This document shows positions 7,591-49,899 of a DNA stretch of 49,899 nucleotides, in pieces. Origin of the DNA: Rhodanobacter denitrificans (GTDB lineage: Bacteria > Pseudomonadota > Gammaproteobacteria > Xanthomonadales > Rhodanobacteraceae); contig JAFIHF010000056.1 in assembly GCA_017848855.1 (NCBI GenBank), forward strand, positions 1-49,899, given 5' to 3'. The notes under the pieces are model-generated. The model had not been told where the DNA came from. It saw only the letters and a list, made by a program, of their open reading frames with translations, and searched no databases. How positions within the stretch are numbered: the first letter of the stretch is position 1; every line of letters starts with the position of its first letter. The translations under genes were made by a program, and so were the position numbers.

Positions 7591-8133
7591 ATGATCGACA
7601 TCCCTGTAATCGAGACGGCGCGCCTGCGCCTGACCGCGCTCACCGAGCGCCATTTCGACGACTACGCCGCCATGCTGGCCGACCCGGACAGCACCCGTTT
7701 CATCGGTGACGGCCAGCCGCTGGACCGCACCAACGCCTGGCGCTCGCTGGCGATGCTGCTCGGCCACTGGCAGCTGCGCGGCTACGGCATGTGGGCGCTG
7801 GAACTGAAGCACAGCGGCGAATTCGTGGGCCGCGCCGGCCTGTTCTGCCCCGAAGGCTGGCCCGACCTGGAACTGGGCTGGATGCTCAAGCCCGAACACC
7901 GCCACCATGGCTACGCCACCGAAGCCGGCATCGCCGTGCTCGACTTCGCCTGGAACCAGCTGCACGCACCGCGGGTGATCAGCCTCGTGCGCGTGGGCAA
8001 CGAAGCCTCCGACCGCGTGGCCGAACGCCTCGGCGGCGAGCACATCGACGACATGAATTTCTACGGCAGCGACACCCGCGTGTTCGCCTACTATCCGCCG
8101 CATCGGGAGAGCCGCAGGGCGGCATGTGGGTGA
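7591..8133 (+). CDS. GNAT family N-acetyltransferase (RimJ/RimL type)
   Basis: A 180-residue cytosolic acetyltransferase. The opening IETARLRLTAL and the body ELGWMLKPEHRHHGYATEA (acetyl-CoA pyrophosphate loop near residues 109-125), followed by SLVRVGNEASDRVAERLG, are typical of the RimJ/RimL-like branch. The acceptor could be a protein N-terminus, a small molecule or an antibiotic; the sequence does not say. The gene reads in the same direction as the SET gene, with a strong hairpin between them, so co-transcription is uncertain. Repeats follow its stop codon. Confidence 0.85.
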   Translation: MIDIPVIETARLRLTALTERHFDDYAAMLADPDSTRFIGDGQPLDRTNAWRSLAMLLGHWQLRGYGMWALELKHSGEFVGRAGLFCPEGWPDLELGWMLKPEHRHHGYATEAGIAVLDFAWNQLHAPRVISLVRVGNEASDRVAERLGGEHIDDMNFYGSDTRVFAYYPPHRESRRAACG

Positions 8134-8173
8134 GGGGTTTTCTCGCCTGTTGGCGAGGTTGGGGAGCAAGGCG

Positions 8174-8485
8174 TTTGCTCTCGCGCTTTCGCAAGCGACA
8201 AAGCGGTTTCGGTCGCCTGCCGGCGCCCGAGCTACTTCTCTTTTGCTTGTTCAAAAGAGAAGTAGCCAAGAGAAAACGACACCCCGCGGCGACGCTTTCC
8301 GTCCATCCATGGACGGAAAGTCCGTGAGTCGGGGCCGGGCTTTTCGGCCGGGCTTCCTGCCCGGTCGAAAAGGCGTTGCCCTCCCTGGCAACGCCCGCTG
8401 CGCGGCCTACTCGTCCCCGCCTCACCGTCGCCGAGGGGCCCCGGGTAAAGCAGCGCGCTCCCAGCGCGCAGAAGCAACAGCAAGA
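8174..8485 (+). repeat. Multi-hairpin structured element, full copy A
   Basis: A non-coding stretch with successive helices. H-a is at 8211-8217/8222-8228 with loop TGCC. H-b is a perfect 14-base stem at 8231-8244/8253-8266. H-c is an 11-base stem at 8295-8305/8310-8320. A longer-range helix at 8324-8334/8415-8425 encloses H-d (8340-8353/8359-8372) and H-e (GGCGTTGCC at 8372-8380 with 8387-8395). Copies B (27565-27860, inverted) and C (49388-49690) share the same order, and many stem positions change in compensating pairs. A further hairpin, CCCTCCCCTGC/GCAGGGGAGGG, follows at 8506-8529. Open frames through the element are not credible genes. Confidence 0.8.
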
Positions 8486-8571
8486 TCAAGAGCACCCCAC
8501 CCCAACCCTCCCCTGCACGCAGGGGAGGGAGACACGACGCCAGGCGAGGCGAAGCGCTGCGAAGCTTTGTT

Positions 8572-8674
8572 CCTCAGTTTCCAGATACGTCGCGGGATGG
8601 CCGTTGTAGGGCGACGCGGCGACGAGCGCTGGTCCAATCCCCTCGACACGGCGGGCTTGTAGGGTCGGCGGATT
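8572..8674 (+). repeat. Conserved 100-base repeat module M2
   Basis: A roughly 100-base sequence running from CCTCAGTTTCCAGATACGTC to a terminal TAGGGTCGGCGGAT. It recurs at 49719-49820 in the same orientation and at 39682-39783 inverted. In copies A and C it lies downstream of the multi-hairpin element in the same orientation. No coding function is apparent. Confidence 0.75.
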
Positions 8675-8694
8675 GAATCAGGCCATTTCTCTTG

Positions 8695-8840
8695 GTTACT
8701 TCTCTTTGGGCCAGCAAAGAGAAGTGACTCGGGCGCCGGCAGGCGTCCGAAACCGCTTTGTCGCTTGCGTAAGCACCCGAGCGAAAGCCCGCCGCAGGCG
8801 AGCCAAGGTGCAGAATCGAAAGGTTGTCGCGAGCACCCGC
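8695..8840 (-). repeat. Short version of the structured element plus tail
   Basis: Carries only hairpins H-b (8695-8728) and H-a (about 8732-8752), inverted relative to copy A, followed by CGAAAGCCCGCCGCAGGC and GAAAGGTTGTCGCGAGC. Together with the preceding M2 module it is nearly identical to the inverse of 39480-39783, making a composite of about 260 bases. A CTCTCCC-like palindrome follows near 8862-8880. The region between the GNAT gene and the adaptor gene (8134-8887) therefore consists almost wholly of repeats. Confidence 0.75.
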
Positions 8841-8887
8841 CCCCTCACCTCAACCCTCTCCCCGGAGGAGAGAGGGAGCAGAGCGCG

Positions 8888-9835
8888 TCAGCGCTTGCCG
8901 TCGGGCAGGAACCGCACGATCACCCGCTGCCCGATGCGCAGCTGCTGCTCGGGCTGGTCGAAGGCGAGCACGCATTCCACGGTGCGCGCGTTGGCGCGGA
9001 TCTGCGGGTCGTTTTCCAGCGTGGCCGGGCCGTAGACCTGGCCGATGCGCAGCACGTGGGCGCTCCAGTGGCCGTTTTCGGCGTCGTCGTTGGCGACCAC
9101 GTCGGCGCGCATGCCGGGCTGCACCGCGGCGATGAAGCTTTCGTTGAGTTCGGCGCGCACGATGCGCGGCTTGTTCGGCAGCAGGGTGAACAGCGGGCCG
9201 GCGGTGGGCGAGACGCTGGCGCCGGGCTGGGCGGCCACGTGCACCACCACGGCGTCGAACGGGGCGTGCAGGCTGCGCTGGGCCAGTTCGTACTTCGCCT
9301 CGGCCAGCTTCTGCGCGGCCATGGCCAATGCGGCCTGGTCGGCGCCGCGTTCGGCGTCGAGCTGCTGGCTGGCTTCGCGGGCGTCGTCCGCGCTCTGGCC
9401 GTCGCCCGCGCCGGCGGCGGCGGCGGCGGCGAGGCGCTGCGCGCGCTGTTTGGCGGCGGCCTGCTTGATGTCGAGCAGCTTGAGCTGGGCCTGCGCCTGT
9501 TCGAGTTGCGCCTGGGCGGCATCCACCGCGAGCTGGGCGGGGCGGGTGTCCAGCGCGGCCAGCAGCTGGCCCTGTTTCACCGTTTCGCCTTCATGCACGG
9601 CGACGCTGGCGAGCGTGCCTTCGCGCGGCATCGCCAGCGCGAGCAGGCCGCCTTCGATGTCCACGCGGCCGCGCGCCACCGCGGCGTAGTGGTTGGCGGC
9701 GGCCGGCGCGGCGGGCGGTTCCGCATTCCTGGAGCAGCCGGCGAGCAGCAGCGTGGCGGCCAGTGCGCATCCGGCGGGCCGCAGCAGCGCCGCGAGGCGC
9801 GCGGGCGAGGACGGACGGGGAGCGGTCGGCGTCAT
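8888..9835 (-). CDS. HlyD/MacA-like periplasmic adaptor lipoprotein
   Basis: A 315-residue membrane fusion protein. A signal peptide with lipobox LLAGC predicts lipidation near residue 31. It has the two half-barrels of a biotinyl-lipoyl domain (EGTLASVAVHEGETVKQGQLLAALD and SLHAPFDAVVVHV) separated by an Ala/Gln-rich coiled-coil hairpin. A beta-barrel follows (VRAELNESFIAAVQPGM). The adaptor bridges the inner-membrane ABC transporter and an outer-membrane channel. Its ATG overlaps the stop codon of the ATPase gene by four bases, so the two are translationally coupled. It is the last gene of the four-gene exporter operon. Confidence 0.9.
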   Translation of the reverse strand: MTPTAPRPSSPARLAALLRPAGCALAATLLLAGCSRNAEPPAAPAAANHYAAVARGRVDIEGGLLALAMPREGTLASVAVHEGETVKQGQLLAALDTRPAQLAVDAAQAQLEQAQAQLKLLDIKQAAAKQRAQRLAAAAAAGAGDGQSADDAREASQQLDAERGADQAALAMAAQKLAEAKYELAQRSLHAPFDAVVVHVAAQPGASVSPTAGPLFTLLPNKPRIVRAELNESFIAAVQPGMRADVVANDDAENGHWSAHVLRIGQVYGPATLENDPQIRANARTVECVLAFDQPEQQLRIGQRVIVRFLPDGKR

Positions 9836-18692: not shown

Positions 18693-18797
18693 CCCCTCTC
18701 CCGCTTGTGGGAGAGGGGCAAAGGCGCGTCGCGGAGGCGTCCGAAAGCCCGCCGCAGGCAAGCCAAATTACGGAAGTGAAAGGTTCTCGCGAGCGCA
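18693..18797. repeat. CTCTCCC palindrome with dispersed tail
   Basis: The palindrome is at 18693-18718. It is followed by CCGAAAGCCCGCCGCAGGC and GAAAGGTTCTCGCGAGC, also found at 8783-8838 and, inverted, near 39490-39520 and 49325-49380. The rest of the gap to the hydrolase gene at 18892 holds only short sequence with no gene I can support. Confidence 0.7.
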
Positions 18798-18891
18798 ACC
18801 CACCCCAGTCGAAAGACTGAAGAAACCGGCCACTGCGAAGCTGGGAGCCAGAAAAGCCGCCAATGCGGCCAGCATCTTCCAAGGCCCCCTC

Positions 18892-26694: not shown

Positions 26695-26850
26695 CCCCTC
26701 TCCCACTTGTGGGAGAGGGGTTGGGGGAGAGGGGCCGCGGGGTGTCGTTTCTCTTTGGTGACTTTCTCTTTGGACAAGCAAAGAGAAAGTCACTCGGGCC
26801 GCGGCAGCGGCTCGAAACCGCTTTGAAACTTGCGAGAGCGCAAAGCAAGA
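26695..26850 (-). repeat. CTCTCCC palindrome and short structured element
   Basis: The palindrome is at 26695-26720. Hairpin H-b of the structured element is at 26758-26793 with perfect 15-base arms GTGACTTTCTCTTTG and its complement. H-a follows near 26796-26813 in the variant form GGCCGC-GGCA-GCGGCT. This is an inverted, shortened copy lacking H-c to H-e. The remaining bases to the VapC stop codon hold nothing I can identify. Confidence 0.75.
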
Positions 26851-26888
26851 AGCCACATCGCACCCGATGCCCACCCCGCGAGGCACGC

Positions 26889-27281
26889 CTAAAACACCGA
26901 CCGCAACCCCAGATGCGTAACGAAGGGCTCGAAGTCCCGATCGTCGTGCAACAGCGTCAGTCCGTCCATGATGCAACGGGTAGCGATGAAGCAGTCGATA
27001 GTCTTGCGAACGGTGCAGCCCTTCGCGCGCAGCACCCGAAAATTGCGCGCGGCCTGCACCGCCGCGGCCTGCCCGCCGAGCTGCACGACGTCGAGGCTGT
27101 CGAACAAGCGCAGGACGTGCTTGAACTCCTTGTCGGTGGCCGTCCCCTGCAACACCTCGGCAAGGATCAGGTCGCCGATGGCCACCGGCTCCACGCCAAG
27201 CAGCGCGTGCAGGCAATCCGTTTGCCGGGTGACGGTGCCGCGCAGATAGTCGATCCAGACGCTGGAGTCGACCAGGATCAC
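26889..27281 (-). CDS. vapC: VapC family PIN-domain ribonuclease toxin
   Basis: A 130-residue PIN-domain protein. Acidic active-site residues are visible: Asp5 in ILVDSSVWIDYL, Glu in LILAEVLQG, Asp in TIDCFIATRC and Asp in LHDDRDFEPF. VapC toxins cut tRNA or rRNA when released from the antitoxin. The start is a GTG at 27281 that overlaps the antitoxin stop codon by four bases (GTGA), the usual coupled arrangement. The pair lies between copies of the structured repeats, which suggests an accessory insertion spot. Confidence 0.9.
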   Translation of the reverse strand: MILVDSSVWIDYLRGTVTRQTDCLHALLGVEPVAIGDLILAEVLQGTATDKEFKHVLRLFDSLDVVQLGGQAAAVQAARNFRVLRAKGCTVRKTIDCFIATRCIMDGLTLLHDDRDFEPFVTHLGLRSVF

Positions 27282-27472
27282 GCATCCGTCCTCATCTTCC
27301 GCAAGTTGCCCTGCCAGTCGACCTTGCCGCGCAGGGTCTTGATCTTCTGCTGCCGCTTGAGCCGCAGCAGGGTCTGCAAGCCGAGTTCCACTGCCTCGCG
27401 CTTGGTCTTGAGCCCGGTAACCCGCAAGGCATCGCGCATCAGCGCGTCGTCGATCACGATATTGGTACGCAT
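27278..27472 (-). CDS. vapB: VapB family antitoxin
   Basis: A 64-residue antitoxin. The N-terminal part MRTNIVIDDALMRDALRVTG followed by KTKREAVELGLQTLLRL matches the VapB ribbon-helix-helix-like DNA-binding family. The C-terminal tail, rich in Lys and Arg with LRGKVDWQGNL, is the typical toxin-wrapping segment. It is translated before and overlaps the toxin gene. An inverted repeat directly upstream of its ATG is a candidate autoregulatory operator. Confidence 0.9.
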   Translation of the reverse strand: MRTNIVIDDALMRDALRVTGLKTKREAVELGLQTLLRLKRQQKIKTLRGKVDWQGNLRKMRTDA

Positions 27473-27499
27473 GTGTATAACCTCGGAAAGTCATACACA
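27472..27499 (-). promoter_or_regulatory. Candidate VapBC operator
   Basis: TGTGTAT (27472-27478) and ATACACA (27493-27499) are perfect 7-base inverted arms separated by 14 bases, abutting the vapB start codon. VapB proteins with their toxin partner commonly repress from palindromes at this position. Binding is inferred. Confidence 0.55.
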
Positions 27500-27564
27500 A
27501 CGTAACGCGAGACTGAGCGGATACGCAAGCTATGTACGCTTGGTGGCGGCGTGGCGTAGCGTTT

Positions 27565-27860
27565 GGCTTCTGGCGCGCAGGATGCGCGTCCGCTCTACCG
27601 GGGCCCCTCGGCGGCGGTGAGCCGTGGACGATCAGGCCGCGCAGCGGGCATCGCCATGGAGGGCGATGCCTTTTCGACCGGACAGGAGTCCGGCCGAAAA
27701 GCCCGGCCGCGGCTCACGGACTTTCCGCCCACGGATGGGCGGAAAGCGGCGCCGCGGGGTGGCCTTCTCTTTTGGCTACTTTTCTCTTGGCCACGCAAGA
27801 GAAAAGTAGCTCGGGCCGCGGCAGCGGCACGAAACCGCTTTGAAACTTGCGTAAGCGTCA
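27565..27860 (-). repeat. Multi-hairpin structured element, full copy B
   Basis: An inverted copy of the element at 8174-8485. Its helices are H-e at 27647-27655/27662-27670, H-d at 27670-27683/27688-27701, the enclosing helix 27617-27627/27707-27717, H-c at 27721-27731/27736-27746, H-b at 27775-27789/27796-27810, and H-a near 27813-27832. Compared with copies A and C, GGCGTTGCC/GGCAACGCC becomes GGCATCGCC/GGCGATGCC, and CTTTCCGTCCA becomes CTTTCCGCCCA with the matching change opposite. Pairing is kept although bases differ. Nothing else is found in the gap from vapB to the aminotransferase apart from the palindromes listed next. Confidence 0.8.
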
Positions 27861-35215: not shown

Positions 35216-35283
35216 GCACGTTCGCGCAAGGTGTGCTGTCGCTTCGATCAACGGTGCGTTCGCATGACGCGAGCGAGGGATTG

Positions 35284-35547
35284 TTCGCCCCATCCATGGG
35301 GCTCACCCCTTCGCGCTGCGCGCTACGGGGCCAGCCTTCGGCTGTCCAAATTCGTTCCAGACGAATTTGTGTTCGCCCCATCCATGGGGCTCGCCCTTCC
35401 ACGCTACGCGCTCCAGGGCCAGCCTTCGGCTGTCCAAATTCGTTCCAGACGAATTTGTGCTCGCCCCATCCATGGGGCTCGCCCTTCCACGCTACGCGCT
35501 CCAGGGCCAGCCTTCGGCTGTCCAAATTCGCTCCCGGCGAATTTGTC
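35284..35547. repeat. Three tandem 88-base repeats with three hairpins each
   Basis: Units are 35284-35371, 35372-35459 and 35460-35547. Each contains GCCCCATCCATGGGGC, AGCCTTCGGCT and an A/T-rich hairpin. In units 1 and 2 the last hairpin is CAAATTCGT-TCCAG-ACGAATTTG; in unit 3 it is CAAATTCGC-TCCCG-GCGAATTTG, a compensated base-pair change. Open frames through the array encode only the repeat and I do not consider them genes. The array lies between the M13 gene and tRNA-Ser, and no other gene is in 35084-35622. Confidence 0.88.
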
Positions 35548-35568: not shown

Positions 35569-35637
35569 CCTCTCTCTCCGCCAGACACGCAAAACGCCCC
35601 ACAAGGGGGCGTTTTGCGTGTCTGGCGGAGAGAGAGG
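35569..35637 (-). terminator. 32-base perfect palindrome overlapping the tRNA-Ser 3' end
   Basis: The arms 35569-35600 and 35606-35637 are perfect complements with a five-base loop. On the minus strand the inner part acts as a terminator-like hairpin directly after the tRNA CCA end. The outer 15 bases of the right arm are the tRNA CCA plus 12 bases of its 3' strand, so the downstream arm could pair with the acceptor and T-stem 3' strand. Confidence 0.8.
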
Positions 35638-35715
35638 GATTCGAACCCTCGATAAGGCTTTTGACCCTATACTCCCTTAGCAGGGGAGCCCCTTCGGCCA
35701 CTCGGGCATCTCTCC
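35623..35715 (-). tRNA. tRNA-Ser (anticodon GCU)
   Basis: A 93-base class II tRNA with encoded CCA (TGG at 35623-35625 on the plus strand). The acceptor stem is GGAGAGA with TCTCTCC, the anticodon loop reads CTGCTAA with GCT as anticodon, the long variable arm of serine tRNAs is present, and the T-loop is GGTTCGAATCC. It reads AGC and AGU codons. Its position next to csrA corresponds to serV downstream of csrA in E. coli, so it belongs to the conserved recA to csrA block. Confidence 0.97.
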
Positions 35716-35797: not shown

Positions 35798-36004
35798 TCA
35801 GTGTTCGTCGCCGCCGGACGCGGAACCGCCGCCCGACTCGTGCTCGCCCTTGATGCGCTGGTAGATCTCTTCGCGATGCACGGCAACGTTCTTCGGTGCA
35901 TTGATGCCGATGCGCACCTGGTTGCCCTTCACGCCCAGAACGGTGACGGTCACCTCGTCGCCGATCATCAGGGTTTCACCCACCCTGCGGGTCAGAATCA
36001 ACAT
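35798..36004 (-). CDS. csrA: Carbon storage regulator CsrA/RsmA
   Basis: A 68-residue RNA-binding dimer. [18 protein letters not shown] and [24 protein letters not shown] are nearly canonical, including the Leu4 and Arg44 region needed for GGA-motif binding. The C-terminal tail is Gly/Ser-rich and a little longer than in E. coli (61 residues). CsrA controls translation and stability of mRNAs for carbon flux, motility, biofilm and virulence. GGAG nine bases before the ATG is its ribosome-binding site. A gap of 257 bases separates it from alaS and should hold its own promoter. Confidence 0.97.
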
Positions 36005-39532: not shown

Positions 39533-39664
39533 CCCCTCTCCCACTTGTGGGAGAGGGGTTGGGGAGAGGGGCTCTTGCTTGTGTGCTTACGTCAGCGACA
39601 AAGCGATTTCGGTCGCCTGCCGGCGCCCGAGTCACTTCTCTTTGCTGGCCCAAAGAGAAGTAAC
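39533..39664 (+). repeat. CTCTCCC palindrome and short structured element between recX and recA
   Basis: The palindrome is at 39533-39558. Hairpins H-a (39611-39628) and H-b (39631-39664) are in the same orientation as copy A. The segment 39480-39783 reads, on the minus strand, almost exactly like 8572-8830, except that the 8.7-kb copy lacks the CTCTCCC palindrome, which looks like an insertion here. Confidence 0.78.
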
Positions 39665-39681
39665 CAAGAGAAATGGCCTGT

Positions 39682-39783
39682 TCAATCCGCCGACTCTACA
39701 AGCCCGCTGTGTCGAGGGGATTGGACCAACGCTCGCCGACACGTCCCCCACAGCGGCCACTCCGCGACGTATCTGGAAACTGA
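39682..39783 (-). repeat. Conserved repeat module M2, inverted copy
   Basis: The inverse of 8572-8674, with the conserved ends ATCCGCCGACTCTACA and GACGTATCTGGAAACTGAG. It lies immediately upstream of the recA terminator hairpin. Confidence 0.75.
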
Positions 39784-39793
39784 GTGTAAAGGG

Positions 39794-44756: not shown

Positions 44757-45332
44757 TCAGCCGGCCGGCGGCTCGGGCGTCCGGTGCGCCTCGTCCGGCA
44801 TCGCGATATCGGGAATCGCGTCCCACTCGGCCTGGCTCAGGCCGGCCGGCGGCGGGGCCCGGTCCACCGGCGTGCGCGCCGGCAGGCGGCCGGCCAGCAC
44901 CAGCTGACGGATGCGCTCGAACACCTCGGCGCGGCCGAACGGCTTCTTCATGAAATCGTCGGCGCCGTAGCGCTGCACGTAGAACTGCTCGGTGGCCTGC
45001 ACGTTGCCGCTGATCATCACGATCGGGATGTGTGCGGTCGGCGGATCGTGGCGCAGCGCGCGCAGCACCGAAAAACCGGACACGCCGGGCAGCACGATGT
45101 CGAGGAAAATCAGGTCGGGACGCTCGTTGCGGGCCAGCGTCAGCGCGCTCTCGCCGTCGGCCGCCTTGAGCACCTCGTAGCCGTCCTGGCCGAGCATCTT
45201 GCCCAGCACCGCGCGGATCGTCGCCGAGTCGTCCACCACCAGCACCCGGGTGGCCACCGGCGCGCGCACGCGCGGTTCGCTGTGCCGGCGCTCGCCGCCC
45301 ACCAGCCGCTTGAACAAACCGAAACCGGCCAT
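44757..45332 (-). CDS. CheY/PilH-like response regulator, paralogue 1
   Basis: A 191-residue protein with a single receiver domain (about 27-150). Asp78 in LIFLDIVLPG is the phospho-acceptor, Ser108 takes the Thr/Ser position and Lys130 lies in FMKKPFG. A short amphipathic N-terminus, GLFKRLVGGE, and a Pro-rich C-terminal tail flank the domain. There is no output domain, so it acts by protein contact. Its closest relative in the window is the regulator at 47145-47690, with 70 consecutive identical bases. No kinase gene is adjacent. Confidence 0.9.
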   Translation of the reverse strand: MAGFGLFKRLVGGERRHSEPRVRAPVATRVLVVDDSATIRAVLGKMLGQDGYEVLKAADGESALTLARNERPDLIFLDIVLPGVSGFSVLRALRHDPPTAHIPIVMISGNVQATEQFYVQRYGADDFMKKPFGRAEVFERIRQLVLAGRLPARTPVDRAPPPAGLSQAEWDAIPDIAMPDEAHRTPEPPAG

Positions 45333-47144: not shown

Positions 47145-47690
47145 TCAGGCCGCCATGCCCGCCATCACGTCGTGCACGGCTTCGACCGCGGACGGTACGG
47201 CCGCCACCGGCGGTTCGACCGTGCGCGCCGCTAGGCGGTCCGCGCGCACCAGCGCCTCGATGCTGGCCTGCACCTCGATGCGGCCGAACGGCTTCTTCAT
47301 GAAATCGTCGGCGCCGTAGCGCTGCACGTAGAACTGCTCGGTGGCCTGCGGGTTGCCGCTGATCATCACGATCGGGATGTGCGCGGTGAGCGGATCGTGG
47401 CGCAGCGCGCGCAGCACCGCGAAGCCGTTGATGCCCGGCAGCACGATGTCGAGGAAGATCAGCTCGGGCAGCTCGGCCTTCGCCAGCTCCAGCGCCTGCT
47501 CGCCGTCGGCGACCTTCTGCACCGCGTAGCCGTCCTGCTCCAGCATGCGGCCCAGCACAGCGCAGATCGTGGGCGAGTCGTCCACCACCAGCATGCGCGT
47601 GCCCAGCGGCGCCAGCCGCCGGCCATCGGTCCGCGGTGCCGACGCCTCGGCGCCGCCCAGCCATCGCTTGAAGAATCCCATGCCGCTCAT
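47145..47690 (-). CDS. CheY/PilH-like response regulator, paralogue 2
   Basis: A 181-residue receiver protein with the same plan as the regulator at 44757-45332: amphipathic start GFFKRWLGG, a receiver domain with Asp81 in LIFLDIVLPG, and a divergent tail ending in VHDVMAGMAA. The stretch QATEQFYVQRYGADDFMKK is identical in both. Bases 47280-47349 are identical to 44931-45000, indicating recent duplication or gene conversion. The ATG at 47690 is used; 47681 is also possible. It converges on the catalase gene and has no adjacent kinase. Confidence 0.9.
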   Translation of the reverse strand: MSGMGFFKRWLGGAEASAPRTDGRRLAPLGTRMLVVDDSPTICAVLGRMLEQDGYAVQKVADGEQALELAKAELPELIFLDIVLPGINGFAVLRALRHDPLTAHIPIVMISGNPQATEQFYVQRYGADDFMKKPFGRIEVQASIEALVRADRLAARTVEPPVAAVPSAVEAVHDVMAGMAA

Positions 47691-49387: not shown

Positions 49388-49690
49388 TGCCGCAAGCGAC
49401 AGAGCGGTTTCGGTCGCCTGCCGGCGCCCGAGTGACTTTCTCTTTGCTTGTCCAAAGAGAAAGTCACCAAAGAGAAACGACACCCCGCGGCGACGCTTTC
49501 CGTCCATTCATGGACGGAAAGTCCGTGAGGCGGGGCCGGGCTTTTCGAGCGGGCTCCTGCCCGCGCGAAAAGGCGTTGCCATCCCTGGCAACGCCCGCTG
49601 CGCGGCCTTGTCGTCCCCGCCTCACCGTCGCCGAGGGGCCCCGGGAAAAGCAGCGCGCTCCCAGCGCGCAGAAGCAACGGCCAGAGCAAA
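49388..49690 (+). repeat. Multi-hairpin structured element, full copy C
   Basis: H-b is at 49432-49446/49453-49467 (perfect 15-base arms), H-c at 49496-49506/49511-49521, the enclosing helix GTGAGGCGGGG at 49525-49535 with a perfect complement at 49615-49625, H-d at 49541-49554/49559-49572, and H-e at 49572-49580/49587-49595. The region before it (49201-49387) holds repeat-derived sequence, including GGCTCGCCTGTGGCGGGCTTTCGG, and no gene I can support. Confidence 0.8.
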
Positions 49691-49718: not shown

Positions 49719-49820
49719 CCTCAGTTTCCAGATACGTCGCGGGGTGGCCGCTGTAGGGCGACGTGTCGACGAGCATTGATCCAACCCCCTCGATACAGCG
49801 GGCCTGTAGGGTCGGCGGAT
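49719..49820 (+). repeat. Conserved repeat module M2, third copy
   Basis: Same orientation and same position relative to the structured element as at 8572-8674. After it, a further palindrome, CCGGCCC...GGGCCGG, lies near 49866-49889 at the window edge. Confidence 0.75.
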
Positions 49821-49899
49821 GGAGCCGGCTATTCCGCTTGGTGCCTTCGCTTGACTCCGGGCATCCGGCCCTCGGCCCCTCGGGCCGGCGTCGCCGGGC

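Follow-up and report, generated by a model that had tools for sequence, protein, structure and literature searches.

A dispersed, structured repeat of Rhodanobacter denitrificans with CsrA-type hairpin tips appears to belong to the TwoAYGGAY group

TwoAYGGAY (RF01731) has been described as a probable RNA, not cis-regulatory, from human gut, gamma-Proteobacteria and Clostridiales (PMC2864571), to which Rfam 15 added two covarying pairs (PMC11701678). Both this kind of RNA and its proposed binding of CsrA are already known; validation of that binding was described as under way at the time, and the reverse complement of another family of uncertain strand was also proposed to bind CsrA (PMC4333381). 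In the open literature that we found, no tested function is reported for TwoAYGGAY since 2010, and a search of the open literature, with subscription journals and preprints outside its scope, returned no description of a dispersed form. RsmW, rsmX and TwoAYGGAY carry one Rfam clan number, CL00106. The sponge RNAs CsrB/CsrC and RsmX/Y/Z/W come from a single gene or a small set of genes, each with a promoter and a terminator of its own. They hold CsrA/RsmA by means of several GGA-tip hairpins (PMC7652899). The element reported here likewise has several GGA-tip hairpins, but is present as many scattered copies, and its copy 1 has neither a promoter nor a terminator pattern. Its host belongs to the same order as Xanthomonas campestris. 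In the latter, RsmU (sRX061) is described as an RsmA-sequestering, mRNA-derived RNA with GGA motifs, a single sRNA with two isoforms (PMC7694677); by this description, the element has GGA motifs in common with it. TwoAYGGAY, like the element, has two adjacent hairpins with AYGGAY-type tips within a common closing stem. In contrast to TwoAYGGAY, the element has a larger frame (P0, Hc, the head hairpins, Hf and a low-complexity tail), looser tips (A-N-GGA-N) and around 100 copies in one genome, often in tail-to-tail pairs.

The window analysed here is a stretch of 49,899 nucleotides from Rhodanobacter denitrificans, whose genome assembly (G000) comprises 3.49 Mb in 73 contigs and is 92.7% complete. 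The original prediction listed three full copies of a multi-hairpin element in this window, with stems that differ between copies while pairing is kept. We located all three copies at their positions, together with the quoted stem differences at the places given, and recognized further, partial or related elements:
8174 to 8485, plus strand: copy 1, type A1, with the head (Ha, Hb) on the left and the tail on the right
8573 to 8790, minus strand: type B element, which shares the head, inverted and tail-to-tail with copy 1
26695 to 26831, minus strand: truncated copy (head and first part)
27565 to 27860, minus strand: copy 2, type A1, inverted
39569 to 39784, plus strand: solitary type B element
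49388 to 49690, plus strand: copy 3, type A1
49720 to 49854, minus strand: part of a type B element, inverted and tail-to-tail with copy 3

The three full copies are 77-87% alike in pairwise comparison of ungapped stretches. Type A2 follows the plan of type A1 with different stems, and type B has only the head in common with type A. Copy 1 and the inverted type B element together make up a composite at 8170-8790; in such composites the inverted heads are approximately 100 nt long. No type B match corresponding to 39569-39784 was present in the equivalent spacer of three related genomes (G011, G007 and G003). Between the truncated copy and copy 2, which have the same orientation, lie a VapB antitoxin gene and a PIN-domain gene (26695-27860).

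The three copies are real, but as a count they fall well short. A covariance model of the central domain (R1), built from 30 copies, gave 103 matches in the genome at E<=0.01 (among the best 150 of 8786 candidates), two of which are weak opposite-strand shadows of good matches, leaving 101. Eighty of these score at least 98 bits and 21 score 49-70 bits, the latter being taken to be mostly type A2. A DNA search of the genome gave at least 71 matches (from the best 40 of 185 candidates), of which the top 40 had E values no higher than 2e-90. The good R1 matches occupy 49 of the 73 contigs, with 19 copies less than 1 kb from the low end of their contig, and include 18 close pairs (<700 bp apart), all 18 arranged head-outward and composed of one strong and one weak match in 17 cases and two strong matches in one. 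What is new here is the Rhodanobacter form, its copy number, the head-outward pairs (18/18), the extra hairpins and the strand. On balance, we consider the element to be probably a dispersed, high-copy RNA of the TwoAYGGAY class, read from the strand opposite to that of the original prediction, whose copies would present CsrA-docking tips and have spread behind gene ends.

In plus orientation the element begins with the hairpins Ha and Hb, followed by an outer long-range helix (P0) that encloses Hc and an inner long-range helix (P1), which in turn encloses Hd and He; Hf and a low-complexity tail follow. In copy 1 these parts are placed as follows:
8215 to 8224, plus strand: hairpin Ha, with the tip TGCC and no GGA
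8231 to 8266, plus strand: hairpin Hb, the conserved head hairpin, 15 pairs
8282 to 8293, plus strand: 5' arm of the outer long-range helix P0, partner 8427-8438
8295 to 8320, minus strand: hairpin Hc, minus-strand tip CATGGATG (CANGGANG)
8324 to 8334, plus strand: 5' arm of the inner long-range helix P1, partner 8415-8425
8341 to 8371, minus strand: hairpin Hd, minus-strand tip CAGGAAG (CsrB-type repeat)
8372 to 8395, minus strand: hairpin He, minus-strand tip CAGGGAGG (CANGGANG)
8415 to 8425, plus strand: 3' arm of P1, partner 8324-8334
8427 to 8438, plus strand: 3' arm of P0, partner 8282-8293
8453 to 8469, plus strand: hairpin Hf, with a variable tip, A(N)GGA on the minus strand in 63/163 copies

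P0 and P1 had escaped the original prediction. P1 pairs as GTGAGTCGGGG/CCCCGCCTCAC in copy 1 (10/11 pairs), as GTGAGGCGGGG/CCCCGCCTCAC in copy 3 (11/11 pairs) and as GTGAGCCGCGG/CCACGGCTCAC in copy 2 (10/11 pairs), where the odd pair, C-A, is a G-U on the other strand. Folding of copy 1 gave a better energy than all of 200 shuffles on both strands (z -8.49 for plus, -5.47 for minus), and the same plan is reached from either strand. The tail is of low complexity (AGAAGCAACAGC..., hexamer-like repeats) and is also seen in a second family within the order (L193 and L202; reversed in L203, L212 and L214). The right flanks of several loci (e.g., L122, L076, L202 and L203) carry hexamer-like simple repeats of the GCAACA, AGAGCT and AAAGCC types, and such tails are reminiscent of the simple-repeat tails of retroposons.

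The original prediction took the compensating changes as a sign of a maintained structure rather than random repeat decay, and this reading held up in much larger alignments. Full or near-full copies numbered 162; a diverse subset of 64 was taken, of which 50 were aligned with plain MAFFT, and 30 went into R1. In the 50-copy alignment, two-sided change was found in 46/78 pairs, and 479 cells had changed on both sides compared to 160 when partners were shuffled. Paired cells amounted to 92.6%, against 80.1% with shuffled partners and 41.6-47.4% when partners were slid along by 1-3 columns; the structure used for this count was written from one aligned copy, which favours it over the slid versions, and the shuffles ignore relatedness among copies, for which the slid control allows in part. 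Two-sided change affected 15/32 pairs of the central domain alone in 30 copies, and 29/32 pairs in 48 matches from other genera, an alignment to the model that leans towards the model and in which two doubtful rows were kept. The covariation score of this 48-match set was 0.640 versus 0.154 shuffled and at most 0.133 slid, and of five measures taken on it one, the number of further pair types, did not exceed the shuffled value (70 versus 66.8; 107/500). Altogether, the covariation of the element is sound.

Repair templated by hairpins, together with gene conversion among the copies, could in principle also produce compensating changes, with no selection on structure. By eye, each copy is a mosaic drawn from a small number of hairpin types, as such a process would give, and recombination among copies would be consistent with the mismatches seen in the long-range helices. 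The long-range helices, with arms approximately 80 and 133 nt apart, covary too (P1 in 8/11 and P0 in 5/10 pairs of the 50-copy alignment; P1 in 11/11 pairs of the wider set), and conversion does not fix the tips; we regard this explanation as very improbable.

The hairpin tips of the element carry an A(N)GGA motif on the minus strand. We sought the hairpins by perfect stems in 194 distinct copies, scoring A(N)GGA on the minus strand wherever a plus-strand TCC had a T directly after it or one base further on, and taking each tip with one stem base per side; after exclusion of copies with no anchor or perfect stem, the motif was present in 142/155 copies for Hc, 161/165 for Hd, 147/153 for He and 63/163 for Hf, on 43, 21, 43 and 22 distinct stems, respectively. 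None of the Hc, Hd, He and Hf tips counted had GGA on the plus strand. As a control, 37/553 intergenic hairpins outside the element (stems >=6) had an A(N)GGA-type tip on either strand. Hc had no GGA in four loci of one relative (G112) and in parts of another (G016). On the minus strand, GGA was present in 149/149 He motifs and the preceding A in 140/149, with a free middle base (54 G, 19 A, 52 T, 24 C); read on the plus strand, TCC (149/149) and T (140/149) flank the free base (C 54, A 52, G 24, T 19). A free middle base between constant neighbours is what CsrA recognition asks for, and contiguous Shine-Dalgarno pairing would not leave a free base there. The T is also kept in those listed hexaloops whose first base is not A, thus pairing with that base does not account for it.

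The minus-strand tip motif equals the CsrB repeat CAGGA(U/A/C)G and the SELEX consensus RUACARGGAUGU, which are described as the CsrA motif (PMC7652899), and CLIP analysis is reported to have given the motif AuGGAug, located within short stem-loops (PMC5694010). Across a wider set of members of the order, the tip was found in Hd in 46/46 copies and in He in 37/46, He not fitting in the other nine, with a spacing of 23-25 nt between the Hd and He motifs in 42/43. Outside the order, among 17 R1 matches in seven genomes, the tip was present in Hd in 17/17 and in He in 16/17, with a spacing of 24-28 nt in 16/16. Both sets were found with R1, which was built from copies having such tips and so favours them; for this reason the tips outside the order are support for the motif, not proof. 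Two weak opposite-strand rows (L182:567-668 and L186:668-748) were left out of the tip, spacing and mismatch counts and kept in the covariation count. The Hd-He spacing falls within the range over which CsrA is described to bridge sites, 10-63 nt with an optimum above 18 (PMC7652899).

These tips, together with the TwoAYGGAY overlap and the RsmW score given below and an excess of A-C over G-T mismatches in the wider set, favour as the informative strand the one opposite to that of the original prediction. In the wider set, 36 of the pairs failing on the plus strand were A-C, which would be G-U on the minus strand, and 4 were G-T; the two figures rest on 9 and 4 columns, i.e., on few independent events. 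The nearer set was neutral on strand (A-C 89 versus G-T 69), an earlier mismatch count gave A-C 101 versus G-T 120, of which helix Hd of type A1 alone contributed 50 G-T, and the strand signal from wobble pairs in the nearer set is therefore weak. Neither a sigma-70 promoter nor an intrinsic-terminator pattern was found in 7900-9000.

The window also contains the proposed partner protein:
35798 to 36004, minus strand: csrA, for which a PF02599 search of the 92.7% complete genome gave this single match

Downstream of csrA and of a tRNA-Ser gene (35623-35715, minus strand), three tandem 88-nt repeats (35282-35545, minus strand) each contain a GCCCC-ATGGAT-GGGGC hairpin on the csrA-sense strand. 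GGA occurs 14 times and TCC 3 times in 401 nt of this array, and its fold has a z score of -7.05. Two matches were found in G011 and G007 and three in G001, with none in the G003 stretch. The array is a candidate for a second CsrA-binding RNA.

At its cut-off, Rfam assigned no family to the element in the window. A lax search of copy 1 gave a match to RsmW on the minus strand (E 0.0093, 28.7 bits; cut-off 52). The RF01731 model had no match at E<=1 in the genome (best 38 of 224 candidates, strict filters) or in 20 Rhodanobacter loci, and its cut-off of 43 bits was reached in none of the same-genus genomes among the candidates scored, the best score being 29.2 bits (G006); among 61 relatives, at least four exceeded it. 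R1 in turn found relatives in at least 23/151 genomes and at least 11/64 genera of the order, and in at least 9/274 genomes of the class, including seven genomes in six families outside the order, whose 15 loci hold the 17 R1 matches mentioned above and in several of which the head hairpin is recognizable by eye. An exact pattern taken from Hd occurs in at least 73 stretches of named records, 68 from Rhodanobacter and five from 'Proteobacteria bacterium' among the matches listed.

The two models meet in other genera. R1 and RF01731 overlap, always on opposite strands, at seven places in five loci (L230, L232, L233 with three places, L235 and L236), and RF01731 exceeds its cut-off at four of them (L230, L232, one place in L233, and L235); L230, which was found with R1, is a TwoAYGGAY of 64.2 bits on the opposite strand. 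At a further place in L232 the R1 match is weak (E 0.22), R1 does not match the place in L234 where RF01731 is above its cut-off, and five loci below that cut-off (L237-L241) gave no R1 match at E<=1. On the minus strand, Hd and He form two adjacent AYGGAY-type tips within a closing stem, with middle and last bases looser than Y. Since the two models overlap in other genera while RF01731 gave no match in this genome or in the 20 Rhodanobacter loci, the element of Rhodanobacter appears to be, by descent, a member of the TwoAYGGAY group that falls outside the Rfam model.

We then turned to the genomic context of the copies. None of 226 element matches overlapped a called gene (simple codon-usage gene calls). 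Among 80 copies flanked on both sides, the neighbouring genes were convergent in 35 cases, divergent in 2 and co-directional in 43, compared to 97, 128 and 312, respectively, for all 537 spacers of at least 50 bp in the same loci. The 43 co-directional copies had the plus strand in sense in 23 and the minus (GGA) strand in 20, i.e., no strand bias relative to the neighbouring genes. The convergent excess, the scarcity of divergent sites and the 23 to 20 split show that copies lie behind gene ends and avoid promoters, with no strand preference. Such a distribution, and the absence of overlap with called genes, would also be expected of ordinary palindromic gene-end repeats acting as transcript stabilizers or terminators, whose tips would be a by-product of common ancestry. 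We consider this improbable, as the stems turn over between families but the tips do not, and copy 1 and its surroundings have no intrinsic terminator pattern.

The original prediction had left the choice between a structured RNA and a hairpin-DNA mobile element. The A(N)GGA tips, their spacing and the TwoAYGGAY overlap favour the RNA side; mobile-like spread fits as well, because the element is dispersed and differs at equivalent sites of related species, in which different spacers are filled. As a purely DNA-level repeat with no RNA role, its hairpins would serve a transposase or recombinase in the form of cruciforms or folded single-stranded DNA, an explanation consistent with the dispersed copies at sites filled or empty in relatives, the head-outward inverted arrangement of all 18 close pairs, a series of G112 copies that share one model score (whole copies 84-95% alike), the little use of wobble pairs, the lack of strand bias relative to genes and the presence of an element at the edge of an inversion. 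It leaves unexplained why A(N)GGA with a free middle base is kept while stems change, why the motif spacing is narrow and why the matches overlap with those of RF01731, a family that Rfam places in one clan with RsmW and rsmX. A MITE would have terminal inverted repeats and target duplications matching an IS; the composites have the inverted heads of approximately 100 nt, and visual inspection of sites revealed no target duplication, the spacers differing too much between species for a clean empty-site junction. Furthermore, no gene for a mobilizing enzyme was found, and the one uninterrupted Y1 transposase frame of the genome is flanked by other repeats. We regard a purely DNA-level repeat as rather unlikely.

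REP/BIME sequences mobilized with RAYT resemble the element as dispersed intergenic palindromes of alternating orientation at gene ends, but the element is a 300-nt multibranched fold, and the RAYT-like gene here stands beside another repeat. The genome has two PF01797 matches, one with an internal stop, and neither locus of approximately 3.2 kb holds the element; a RAYT/REP origin was rejected, the uninterrupted RAYT-like gene being flanked by a different repeat. Carriage by plasmids or phages was likewise rejected, as none of 72,556 plasmid and 50,697 phage records matched the element and its exact pattern had no match in viral contigs.

Returning to the RNA reading, we infer transcription, CsrA binding and the mode of spread from the features described above. 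In a transcript running through a copy on the GGA strand, the A(N)GGA tips of Hd and He could each meet one face of a single CsrA/RsmA dimer, and Hc, sometimes also Hf, would offer another tip. The copies may titrate CsrA by binding it, or serve as 3'-end marks for the transcripts that carry them, and would have multiplied into spacers behind gene ends by a mobile or recombinational route. It is tempting to speculate, albeit tentatively, that a mobile-like repeat spreads a CsrA-docking module, and that around 100 copies with two to four tips each form a distributed sponge that sets the level of free regulator, with copy number and read-through tuning Csr and an unrelated GGA-tip array standing beside csrA. 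Some palindromic repeats in gammaproteobacterial spacers may accordingly touch a global regulator, which raises the question of how CsrA is kept free in a cell with this many potential docking sites. With around 100 diverged copies and the one csrA found, both CsrA binding and the strand become directly testable.

Several observations concern the surroundings of the copies. The segment 8895-18719 is inverted with respect to G011 and G002, and to G007 as far as its contig goes, with the composite 8170-8790 at one edge and a related fragment (18742-18806) at the other; it may have been flipped by recombination between repeats. In G112, four loci (L168, L169, L171 and L172) show a composite of approximately 900 nt made of nested palindromes, in which a GTAGGAGCGC-type REP pair lies centrally between two tails. 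Many copies of this genome have identical model scores, yet the whole copies are 84-95% alike and, with the palindromes nested, their ends are not fixable to the base. In G036, eight copies of the central domain lie within approximately 14 kb (C1:2256588-2270572; L188, L198 and L208). Finally, two response-regulator genes in the window (44757-45317 and 47145-47690, minus strand) have a 300-bp stretch in common, with 83% identity.
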